From NCBI GenBank assembly GCA_028722305.1, contig JAQYHB010000050.1, forward strand, positions 1-64,000: a stretch of DNA of 64,000 nt, given 5' to 3'. The translations under genes and the position numbers were made by a program. The stretch is from Spirochaetales bacterium (GTDB lineage: Bacteria; Spirochaetota; Spirochaetia; Sphaerochaetales; Sphaerochaetaceae). The notes under the pieces were generated by a model. It made no database searches, was not told where the DNA came from, and saw only the letters and a list, made by a program, of their open reading frames with translations. Of this stretch, positions 36,515 through 42,040 are shown one piece after another (the stretch's first letter is position 1; each line of letters opens with the position of its first letter).

Positions 36515-36595
36515 GCCCAAGTGGTGGAATGGTAGACACTGGGGACTTAAAATCCCCTGCCTTACGGCGTACGGGTTCGAGCCCCGTCTTGGGTA
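36515..36595 (+). tRNA. tRNA-Leu(UAA), integration target
   Basis: Acceptor arms GCCCAAG and CTTGGGT pair, with discriminator A at 36595. The anticodon loop CTTAAAA within GGGGA/TCCCC gives anticodon TAA. The T-arm is ACGGGTTCGAGCCCCGT. Its 3' half is duplicated at 41974-42024, the far end of the integrated element, as expected for a tRNA attachment site used by a tyrosine integrase. The complete tRNA is restored at the left end. Confidence 0.95.
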
Positions 36596-36612
36596 TAAAA
36601 CGATACTCTGAA
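36546..36612. repeat. Left attachment repeat (attL)
   Basis: Covers the anticodon-to-3' end of tRNA-Leu(UAA) plus 17 downstream bases. Identical to the right copy over the last 49 bases. Confidence 0.9.
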
Positions 36613-36674
36613 AGGAATTACAGTTGTTTGTAGCTGACTGAAATTCCGAGGGAAAAGGGCGGAAAAGCCTTAGA

Positions 36675-36695
36675 GGCAGTAAAATAGGCAGTAAA
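36675..36695. promoter_or_regulatory. Paired GGCAGTAAA elements near attL (integrase arm-site candidates)
   Basis: GGCAGTAAAA at 36675 and GGCAGTAAA at 36687, 12 bp apart in the same orientation. An equal pair with the same 12-bp period lies near the right end (41835 and 41847). Lambda-type integrases bind such arm-type repeats. Confidence 0.55.
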
Positions 36696-36843
36696 TATTT
36701 CGCTCCTTTCCCCAAAAGAGGAGTATCACGTGGGGGCTTTTACTGTGTATCGAAGGGCCAGAAAAAATGGTTCTAGGCCTTTTTATGTTCAATATACCAA
36801 CCCCGAGACTGGATTGTAGTGCAACGCTCTTTCAATTAACAAA

Positions 36844-37995
36844 TTGTTTTGGCTCCTTGGAGGTAGCAGAAACGAAACTGTACATCGAAAGGCTGTTGCT
36901 TGGGAGGTTGCCTATAAGGCACTCCAAGCTGGAATCGTTTGTAGCAAGAAATTCGAGACGAAAGCGGAAGCGAAAATACCTTTTGCCGAATATGTGGTTA
37001 AATTCTGGGATTTCGACAAGTCGGACTACATCAAGAGACGCAACAAGGAAAAGCCCAACAGCATTACTAAGGGTACAGCTGAAAAAGAGAAAAAATTGTT
37101 TGAGCGTTACGCTATCCCGTTGCTTCCCAAAGGAATCAAGTTATCCCAAGTCAAAGGGAGCGATATGGAGCGGATACGGGACAGTCTGTTTGGACTGGAC
37201 GTTTCCAATTCTACCATCAACAAGGTGCTACAGGCGCTACGGAGTCCGTTGAAGGAGGCGTACCGTCTAGGGTATATCGGGGCAAATATCGGGGAGCAAA
37301 TCAGGAACGCTACCCCGACACCAAGGGAGACAGGGATTCTAACTCCTGAAGAAATAGCTAAAGTGTTCTCCTATCTCCATAAAACAGTAAAGCCAAACAC
37401 TTATGACCGGATGTTTTACTTGGCTTTCTCATTAGCCGTTACTACGGGTATGCGTGAAGGGGAGATACGGGCATTGAAGGTTTCGGATATCTCTTTCAAG
37501 GGTGACTCTGCATTCATCCATGTTTCCCGTTCGTTCAGCGACACGGACGGCTACAAGGTTACCAAAGGTAAGCGGTCAAGGACTACGGTTACTGACGCTG
37601 AATTAGGCCATGAAATACTGTCATTCGCTGAAAAGAATCCGTGGGCAAATGACTATTGTTTTTGGTCAACGGACAACAAGGAAAAGCCCATAGGAGGACG
37701 TTTCTTCCTAGACCATTTCAAGGAAGCCCTCAACGCAATAGGAATCAATGAGGAAGAGCGGAAGAAGAGAAACCTGAAGTTCCATAGCCTCAGGGGAAAT
37801 TTTGCTACTGCCATCAGTTCCAAAGCAACGGAAACCACTATCAAACAAGTTGTAGGCCATTCCTCAATCATGACCACGGAACGTTACTACCTTCATGAGG
37901 ACTTCAACGAACTCGTACGGCTGAACCAAGCACGAAGAGAAACCATTCGGATACCAGAGAACAACAACCGAAAGGAGAGGGCACGAGATGGATAA
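36844..37995 (+). CDS. Tyrosine recombinase (integrase) with in-frame amber codon upstream
   Basis: The open frame from a TTG at 36844 gives 383 residues. The core-binding region is about 45-130 and the catalytic domain about 150-360. Catalytic residues are visible: Arg in TTGMREGEIRALK, His-x-x-Arg in FHSLRGNFAT, GHSS, and Tyr in MTTERYYLHE. Relatives start further upstream: GTG at 36730, with AGGAG before it, opens the same frame, which is broken by TAG at 36817-36819 (codon 30) where the tandem relic copy has CAG. The N-terminal arm-binding part (VYRRARKNGSRPFYVQY) is thus cut off unless the amber is read through. It ends with an 8-base overlap of the next gene. Confidence 0.85.
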   Translation: MFWLLGGSRNETVHRKAVAWEVAYKALQAGIVCSKKFETKAEAKIPFAEYVVKFWDFDKSDYIKRRNKEKPNSITKGTAEKEKKLFERYAIPLLPKGIKLSQVKGSDMERIRDSLFGLDVSNSTINKVLQALRSPLKEAYRLGYIGANIGEQIRNATPTPRETGILTPEEIAKVFSYLHKTVKPNTYDRMFYLAFSLAVTTGMREGEIRALKVSDISFKGDSAFIHVSRSFSDTDGYKVTKGKRSRTTVTDAELGHEILSFAEKNPWANDYCFWSTDNKEKPIGGRFFLDHFKEALNAIGINEEERKKRNLKFHSLRGNFATAISSKATETTIKQVVGHSSIMTTERYYLHEDFNELVRLNQARRETIRIPENNNRKERARDG

Positions 37996-38827
37996 GAAAG
38001 GAGCGGAATGGAGTCGACAAGACACGGAAAAGCCCCGAGAAGAAGGGAACAAAGGACTCGTAGAAAAGGTTATGGCAACCTATACGGAACTGTCAGCAAA
38101 ATACAGCCCCGATTTGCAGATAAGTCATGCATTTGCGAACTACATTAAGGCTATGCCTTTCGACTTCCTGTTTGATGAGATGAGGAGTGAAAAGGGAGAA
38201 GCCAAGATACGGGAAGCAGAAGCTACAAAGCAACGGAAAAACCTAGGGCCTAAACGCAAAGAAGGCCGATTTACCCGAATGGAAGTTGAGGCAGAGAAAG
38301 CCATCTTAAGGAAAATGAAGATGCTCCTGCATGACCTAGAAAGCATGGAAAACGATTCTAGTGGTGAAGTTGAAACCATAATGAACGGATTAACGGTTGG
38401 TACCTTGCTCTCATCCCTTATGGGAGATTTCCTGTTCTTGACAAAACTGCATAGCGAAATCATCTATAGCGAATCGGATTTTCTGGAAGGTCAGGACCAA
38501 CGGGAGAAGGTTATAGCTGAAACATACAGCGCATTCTACGATGACCCAATTATCAAGATAGCCGTAGCGAACGGCCTTCTTCGTCCAAGGGAAGAAAAGA
38601 AAGGAACATTTTGGGTTGTAGGGGGAACTCTAAGGGAAACCATGGAAAGATGGGTGGCTTTGCTCATGAACTCTCCCAATCCGAATCTTCAAAAAACCGA
38701 AACCTTCCATACGACCAAGTTGGCGAAAATTCTTTATTCCAAAAAAAGTCTGAAACCGTATACAGAGAGAGCTATAACTCTAGCTACAGATGGACTTTAT
38801 CCAAAGCGAACTGCCCGAAAAGGATAA
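37988..38827 (+). CDS. Element-encoded protein of unknown function
   Basis: 279 residues; the ATG overlaps the integrase end by 8 bases, with AAGGAGAGG upstream. Predominantly helical and charged, for example KGEAKIREAEATKQRKNLGP and RMEVEAEKAILRKMKMLLHD. A hydrophobic helix lies near 135-150 (GLTVGTLLSSLMGDFLFL). There is no signal peptide or known catalytic motif. I do not recognise the family. Its coupling to the integrase suggests a role in the element's maintenance or control. Confidence 0.65.
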   Translation: MDKKGAEWSRQDTEKPREEGNKGLVEKVMATYTELSAKYSPDLQISHAFANYIKAMPFDFLFDEMRSEKGEAKIREAEATKQRKNLGPKRKEGRFTRMEVEAEKAILRKMKMLLHDLESMENDSSGEVETIMNGLTVGTLLSSLMGDFLFLTKLHSEIIYSESDFLEGQDQREKVIAETYSAFYDDPIIKIAVANGLLRPREEKKGTFWVVGGTLRETMERWVALLMNSPNPNLQKTETFHTTKLAKILYSKKSLKPYTERAITLATDGLYPKRTARKG

Positions 38828-38861
38828 AAAATTTCATGAACTTTTCATGAACTGACACAAC

Positions 38862-41105: not shown

Positions 41106-41230
41106 TGTATCAATAGAGTGTACTTGTATGATACAGCAAAAACTGCTTCGTTTATGTATCGTACAAATTATTTACATGATACAAAAGTGTATCAATTTCT
41201 AATATGGTATTATTGATACATATTCATACA
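41104..41230. promoter_or_regulatory. Repeat-rich region upstream of the serine recombinase (res/operator candidate)
   Basis: TGTATCA or TGATACA-type heptamers occur at 41106, 41125 (TGTATGATACA), 41155 (TGTATCGTACA), 41177/41188 (inverted pair spaced 4 bp) and 41214. The 127-bp size, AT-richness and several imperfect dyads fit a resolvase res site with subsites, or an operator shared by the divergent genes. Confidence 0.6.
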
Positions 41231-41269
41231 AATGCTACTCTATTGATATCAAAGGGGAAGGGGTACAGC

Positions 41270-41824
41270 ATGAAAGTCGGATATGTGAGAGTCAGCACCA
41301 AGGAACAGAACACGGCTAGGCAAGATGAGATGATGGAGGCCCTTAGCGTTGAGAAGGTGTTCACTGAGAAGGTCAGCGGGAAGAACATGAACCGTCCTCA
41401 GCTAAAGGCTATGATGGAGTTTGTCCGTCAGGGAGATACCGTTGTAGTTGAGTCTTATTCCCGGCTTGCCCGTAGTACCAAGGACCTGCTTACCATCGTG
41501 GAACGGCTGAACGAGAAAGGCGTGTCTTTCATCAGCCAAAAAGAGAGAATCGACACTTCCACCCCTCAGGGCCGTCTGATGATGACTATCTTTGCAGGGC
41601 TTGCTCAGTTCGAACGAGAATGCACCCTACAGCGTCAGGCGGAAGGAATTGCCATTGCCAAGGCTGAGGGAAAATACAAGGGTCGTCAGCCTATTGCAAA
41701 GCCTACCAATTGGGATAGCGTCTATGCCCAATGGAAGGCTGGTGATATCACTGCAAGGGTTGCTCAGAAGAAGCTCTCTCTTACTCCTGCTACATTCTAC
41801 AGAATGGTAAAGAAATGGTCTTGA
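41270..41824 (+). CDS. Serine recombinase, resolvase/invertase (Pin) type
   Basis: 184 residues from the ATG at 41270 (AAGGGGAAGGGG upstream). Catalytic Ser9 lies in GYVRVSTKEQN. Further active-site residues occur in VVESYSRLARSTKDLL and the core ends with GRLMMTIFAGLAQFERE (arginine and E-helix region). A short C-terminal HTH follows (ITARVAQKKLSLTPATFYRM). It cuts and rejoins DNA through a 5'-phosphoserine. Within a 5.4-kb element it may resolve dimers, or invert or delete a local segment. No inverted gene segment is seen. Confidence 0.93.
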   Translation: MKVGYVRVSTKEQNTARQDEMMEALSVEKVFTEKVSGKNMNRPQLKAMMEFVRQGDTVVVESYSRLARSTKDLLTIVERLNEKGVSFISQKERIDTSTPQGRLMMTIFAGLAQFERECTLQRQAEGIAIAKAEGKYKGRQPIAKPTNWDSVYAQWKAGDITARVAQKKLSLTPATFYRMVKKWS

Positions 41825-41834
41825 AAAGGACTAT

Positions 41835-41856
41835 GGCAGTAAAAGTGGCAGTAGAA
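41835..41856. promoter_or_regulatory. Paired GGCAGTA elements near attR (integrase arm-site candidates)
   Basis: GGCAGTAAAA at 41835 and GGCAGTAGAA at 41847, 12 bp apart, matching the pair next to attL in sequence, period and orientation. Confidence 0.55.
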
Positions 41857-41973
41857 AAAGTTCTATCTTGTCTTTATTTGTATCAATTCATACGAATACG
41901 ATTCTTGACTATCTTAACAACGTGTATTAACTTGGCATAAGTAGTGATAGTAAATCGTAATTCCTTACACTAT

Positions 41974-42040
41974 CTTAAAATCCCCTGCTTAACGGCGTAC
42001 GGGTTCGAGCCCCGTCTTGGGTATAAAACGATACTCTGAA
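41974..42040. repeat. Right attachment repeat (attR), a tRNA-Leu 3' duplicate
   Basis: Copy of 36546-36612, 5,428 bp away, with two mismatches. It lacks the 5' part of the tRNA, so it is not a gene. It is at once the left end of the second, degraded element. Confidence 0.9.

Follow-up and report, generated by a model that had tools for sequence, protein, structure and literature searches.

Phage-inducible chromosomal islands (PICIs) are defined as elements of about 12-15 kb that occupy a specific attachment (att) site and carry a primase and an initiator followed by iterons. In Gram-negative bacteria all their genes point in one direction, and terS, the gene for the terminase small subunit, is optional in the family (PMC6092414, Fillol-Salom et al. 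2018). Phage-dependent induction, interference and packaging in phage particles are their defining steps (PMC6092414). The PICMI elements of Vibrionaceae adjoin fis, are without terS, and are packaged as concatemers, with PICMI115 measuring 6,110 bp (PMC10803314). In the DNA analyzed here (the window; 64,000 nucleotides of Spirochaetales contig JAQYHB010000050.1), an initial annotation made from the sequence alone had described a small PICI-like satellite in a tRNA-Leu(UAA) gene. We find that the insertion is a mobile element with a TerS-family gene, and that it is probably, though by no means certainly, a small, plasmid-like integrative replicon that acquired its terS from a phage and behaves as a phage satellite.

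The element is discrete, measures 5,428 bp, and is flanked by 67-bp direct repeats. The ARAGORN call and a repeat comparison agreed with the earlier description of the insertion: the two repeat copies differ by 2 mismatches and are spaced 5,428 bp apart, and their 24-bp tRNA core occurs 2 times in the whole window, with 0 occurrences expected by chance. The lower GC content noted before was also found, with 44-47% inside the element vs mostly 52-60% in the surroundings. From left to right, the order is int, orf2, a xis-like gene of the HTH_17 type, P201, an iteron-like array, a non-coding segment, terS (on the minus strand), and the serine recombinase gene (Table 1). Scans of the six main element proteins against Pfam and PHROGs gave no virion, lysis, relaxase, mobilization or type IV secretion match, as expected from the reported absence of virion and conjugation genes.

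An empty site, which the initial annotation had proposed to look for in relatives, was found in a genome of the same genus (G001). There, the tRNA-Leu gene lies beside the same TatD-like gene, the next conserved gene (window 44022-44507) follows at a distance of about 830 bp, and the interval is free of int, of the rest of the element and of any second tRNA fragment, which identifies the locus as an empty site. Another genus-mate (G002), a Spirochaetaceae metagenome-assembled genome that supports the earlier view of the host as a probable spirochaete, bears the element at the same tRNA-Leu gene. The two copies are 99.8% identical where assembled vs about 91% in the flanking chromosome. Over 36642-38993, where the G002 contig ends, they differ by about 5 substitutions, with one short indel just to the left, and 300-bp blocks of the 2.7-kb left flank show 85-96% identity. 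Because of this difference between element and flank, we conclude that the element, or at least its 36642-38993 part, moved recently between the lineages of G000 (the genome of the window) and G002, after their separation.

G002 also contains a second, diverged element in a tRNA-Phe gene. Its attL and attR were found on two contigs (C32 and C23, respectively), which have a 44-bp repeat in common. The junction of the contig ends falls within P201, of which about 100 bp are absent; that both contigs form a single element is suggested by their matching att and arm repeats. Its order matches that of the window (int-orf-xis-P201-iterons-terS-res). The integrase is 51-53% identical to that of the window and the second gene is different, while TerS and the resolvase are 81% and 86% identical, respectively. 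Around xis, in contrast, a block shows 98-99% identity except for a 66-bp deletion, and its presence in otherwise diverged elements shows that these elements exchange parts. Larger prophages or integrative and conjugative elements (ICEs) had been named beforehand as places where the same gene set would speak against a satellite; the set was found only in small tRNA-borne elements.

The TerS-like protein of the initial annotation was confirmed by several lines of evidence. It matches phrog_309, 'terminase small subunit' (E = 3.8e-7), as do 25 of the 28 aligned family members. A profile of four sequences identified 60 relatives from viral contigs, and in two Spirochaetaceae prophages the relatives stand directly before genes for the terminase large subunit (TerL), portal and capsid. 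The terL gene was directly downstream in all relatives scanned (10/10; 2 prophages, 8 viral contigs). The AlphaFold model is an all-helical helix-turn-helix (HTH) protein, and its fold matches in BFVD include terminase small subunits, with a TerS-annotated protein second in the list. A PDB fold search with the model gave generic HTH matches only and a PDB profile search nothing significant, so that neither was informative. Between the window and the tRNA-Phe version, the ratio of nonsynonymous to synonymous substitution rates (dN/dS) is 0.27 for terS and 0.08 for res, indicating that both are kept as proteins by purifying selection. Judging from family match and gene neighborhoods, terS is a genuine TerS-family gene.

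The serine recombinase reported at the other end is present as well, with a Resolvase match at E = 2.3e-44. Several genera of the family contain close relatives of it (57-86% identity). The same three-dyad array, built of TGTATCAATA/TATTGATACA-type half-sites at conserved spacing, lies upstream of seven resolvase genes, and in eight loci the half-site counts exceed those of shuffles (P <= 0.003). With the res site layout of the Tn3 family as comparison (PMC9943657), we predict that the protein is a Tn3-type resolvase acting on a three-subsite res site. A role as invertase, suggested by the label phrog_125, was rejected, since the conserved upstream array and the plasmid relatives speak for a resolvase. 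The recombinase had been noted as foreign to the classical satellite plan, but it is no oddity of this element: resolvase and res are common to related elements in which terS was not detected. Int-Xis-Rep-Res elements borne by tRNA genes form a wider group, whose far end is marked by the resolvase. One of them, in genome G096 (L152, 4227-9531), spans 5.26 kb in a tRNA-Cys gene with 45-bp att repeats and has the same chassis and resolvase; besides int, xis and res, it has two small genes and, after xis, one for a replication-type ATPase (AAA_25), and terS was not found in it. Two larger sister elements (L149 and L150) have a weakly Rep_trans-like protein after xis. These two and L151 are larger elements with the same resolvase, with the same res site where checked, and with a cargo of ankyrin-repeat, NUDIX-like, HTH and lipoprotein-like genes. 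At tRNA-Ala, att repeats were not found for the elements L036, L160 and L161.

For replication, P201 is the candidate protein. The chief reason for this assignment is its place after xis and before the iterons, the fold being only a hint: the predicted structure has low confidence (mean pLDDT 62) with weak DnaD-N fold matches, and Pfam and PHROGs gave no primase match. The iteron-like repeats seen earlier were recovered with periods of 32 bp and 11 bp, and the array of the tRNA-Phe element has a different sequence with the same 32-bp period. The non-coding segment that follows is 90% identical to its G002 version, while synonymous sites of the genes around it differ by 39-62%. Single-base indels are scattered through the segment and disrupt reading frames. 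Searches in phages, viral contigs and 139 genomes of the family found the segment only in G000 and G002. It is plausibly a packaging site or part of an origin, but its 90% identity, observed between two sequences, may instead reflect recombination of intermediate age.

We propose that Int and Xis would insert and excise the element at the 3' half of the tRNA-Leu gene, and that P201 would help the circular form to replicate from the iterons. Acting at its own res site, the serine resolvase would turn multimers into monomers, as on plasmids. TerS would then work with the large terminase subunit and the capsids of a helper phage to package the DNA of the element, which would spread in the form of transducing particles. 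Packaging may start at the conserved segment that adjoins terS, as its packaging site.

Several observations weigh against this proposal. Headful packaging of concatemers is hard to square with a resolvase whose products are monomers, and the sister elements without terS imply that the chassis does not need this gene. The role of P201 as initiator depends on position and on a low-confidence fold. When viral contigs were searched with TerS, P201 and the integrase as single sequences, no relative was found, and two conserved stretches of the non-coding segment (a 23-mer and a 27-mer) were absent from these contigs. The helper was not identified: the TerL families that accompany this TerS family are phrog_2 and phrog_38, and no Terminase_6N or Terminase_3 protein was present in the three genomes of the genus. 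The one prophage seen in the same genome (on contig C22) consists of genuine prophage genes, but it was rejected as helper because its TerL belongs to a different family, phrog_9. This HK97-type prophage (about 0.4-24.1 kb of the contig; L169, L171) has an integrase and tail, head, portal and TerL genes. No recognizable TerS lies beside its TerL, and an exact 35-nt repeat was noted just beyond (L172, 784 and 982).

The strongest rival explanation is a plasmid-like integrative element without phage packaging, whose spread would depend on transformation or on transport by other elements. Its TerS homologue would be a DNA-binding regulator, for example of a divergent res promoter, or passenger cargo. 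The divergent orientation of terS and res, with an upstream region shared with the res site, fits this explanation, as do the missing helper and the sister elements of similar chassis that carry other genes, such as those for ankyrin-repeat proteins, in place of a detected terS. The constant company of terL among the scanned relatives and the annotation of the family as TerS argue against this rival, and the protein has been kept in both diverged versions at a dN/dS that signals constraint. We consider the unpackaged element rather unlikely, while prophage decay and conjugative mobilization fit the data worse still. A degenerate prophage that kept int, xis, a replication gene and terS but lost its head, tail and lysis genes would account for the TerS-family gene, the phage-type integrase and the stop codon in the window's int. 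It would hardly account for the same compact order at two tRNAs in G002 with different integrases, for iterons that differ between the tRNA-Phe version and the window, or for coding genes under purifying selection. The resolvase and res site are, moreover, common to sister elements that show no phage genes, and terS stands between origin and resolvase rather than before terL, which makes a remnant very improbable. Scarcely better are the prospects of an integrative mobilizable element (IME) conjugated in trans by a helper ICE or plasmid from an unrecognized origin of transfer in the non-coding segment. The low divergence of this 417-bp segment, only 10% compared with the 39-62% at neighboring synonymous sites, would suit such an origin, but it could also mark a packaging site or result from recombination of intermediate age, and the element proteins include no relaxase or mobilization match.

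Because of the early stop codon in its own int, the window copy itself can probably no longer move without an intact integrase supplied in trans. A tyrosine integrase is indeed present at one end (Pfam E = 2.6e-20), as had been stated, but the integrase read earlier is only the part after an in-frame stop at codon 30. This stop became apparent in the frame from the homologous start at 36730, which aligns with both the neighboring remnant and the intact gene of G002, where the stop is not present. The N-terminal part of such integrases binds arm sites. From the sequence, the product of the window copy probably lacks this part and is probably inactive. The Xis-like protein gave an HTH_17 match at E = 1.3e-10. 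A 31-nt sequence stands in inverted orientation upstream of both int and xis and is a possible common control site. Among 395 genomes of the class, orf2 is present only in G000 and G002. A common origin with the second gene of the sister elements was considered and rejected: the proteins of L149, L150 and L152 are mutually related, and that of the window is not demonstrably so.

Table 1. Features of the tRNA-Leu(UAA) element and of the adjoining remnant (positions in the window).
Feature	Position	Strand	Basis or remark
tRNA-Leu(UAA), integration target, restored intact at left end	36515..36595	+	ARAGORN; Rfam tRNA
attL copy of 67-bp repeat	36546..36612	+	tRNA 3' half from anticodon loop plus 17 bp
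31-nt sequence, inverted copy near int	36611..36641		Candidate operator or Xis site; internal repeat comparison
Candidate Int arm-type sites, GGCAGTAAAATAGGCAGTA, recurring near attR	36675..36693	+	Internal repeats
Tyrosine integrase gene (int), nonsense codon at codon 30	36730..37995	+	Open frame 36844-37995
orf2, 279 aa, function not assigned	37988..38827	+	Overlaps int 3' end
31-nt sequence, second copy (inverted)	38888..38918		Directly upstream of xis; internal repeat comparison
Xis-like HTH_17 protein, 68 aa	38931..39137	+	Pfam, PHROGs
P201, 201 aa, candidate replication initiator or loader	39270..39875	+	Position of sister elements' replication gene
Terminator-like hairpin 3' of P201	39888..39914	+	Consensus match only
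Iteron-like array	39939..40022	+	Periods 32 and 11 bp
Conserved non-coding segment, 417 bp	40164..40580		May act in cis, in packaging or as origin
terS-like gene, 181 aa, phage terminase small subunit family	40560..41105	-	PHROGs, neighborhoods, fold
Putative res site, three subsites	41106..41220	+	Conserved upstream of seven resolvase genes
Serine resolvase (predicted), 184 aa	41270..41824	+	Pfam, PHROGs
Candidate Int arm-type sites, right end	41835..41853	+	Internal repeats
attR copy of 67-bp repeat	41974..42040	+	
Decayed integrase of second element	42041..43029	+	Arm sites 42103-42121; about 285 bp of int missing; frame broken

Beyond attR, the sequence is not ordinary chromosome, and the initial annotation needs correction here. 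Similarity to the int gene of the window continues past 42040 to 43029 at 83-85% DNA identity. Because this decayed second int gene adjoins attR, the sequence indicates that the tRNA-Leu site holds one element and one remnant and has been hit at least twice. Further to the right, window 43164-44021 encodes a NAT_N/GNAT_C acyltransferase with 61% protein identity to its G002 counterpart, compared with 99% for the adjoining gene, and with no match in the G001 interval. A pair of DUF6577 and AbiEii nucleotidyltransferase genes, likely a type IV toxin-antitoxin system, occupies 44844-46645 and has no match in the orthologous G001 and G002 regions examined.

No paper in the library searched combines 'phage satellite' and 'Spirochaet'. 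In spirochaetes, the element would be the first candidate satellite that we could find. More tentatively, it may represent a spirochaete satellite lineage independent of PICIs, in which the uptake of terS, one gene from a phage, made a satellite of a plasmid chassis (Int-Xis-Rep-Res) that integrates into tRNA genes. On this reading, few satellites that specify their own packaging would be as small.

The likeness to PICIs consists in an integrase at one end in a specific att site, an HTH protein of the Xis or regulator type, iterons downstream of a candidate replication gene, a terS homologue, and no virion or lysis genes. In contrast to the 12-15 kb of PICIs, the element measures 5.4 kb, has no recognizable primase, carries terS on the opposite strand near the far end, and possesses an additional Tn3-type resolvase with res. 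We reject a classical PICI on size, on gene order with terS orientation, and on the lack of a recognizable primase. What survives of the PICI-like satellite of the initial annotation is therefore a mobile element with a TerS-family gene and no virion genes, but not PICI membership. With PICMIs, the element has in common a similar size, a reduced set of excision and replication genes and the absence of capsid genes. It is not one of them, since it resides in tRNA-Leu of a spirochaete host, contains terS and encodes a resolvase. Nor does it fit the ICEs or IMEs, as its proteins gave no relaxase or type IV secretion match in the Pfam and PHROGs scans. Like Tn3-family systems, it has a 184-aa serine recombinase with a three-subsite site directly upstream (PMC9943657), but there is no Tn3 transposase and the resolvase belongs to an integrative element. 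Neither the PICI paper (PMC6092414) nor the PICMI paper (PMC10803314) mentions a resolvase, and if the independent-lineage reading holds, this would be the first satellite seen whose own resolvase determines in what copy form its DNA is packaged. The integrative elements of the same family (L152 in tRNA-Cys, L149 and L150) follow the same order of int-orf-xis-replication gene-cargo-resolvase with a similar res, the tRNA target and att repeats being demonstrated for L152. They differ in having an AAA_25 or weakly Rep_trans-like replication gene instead of P201 and no terS that could be found. Sister elements with and without terS in one family would offer a direct test of how a satellite evolves from an ordinary integrative replicon by the gain of one gene.

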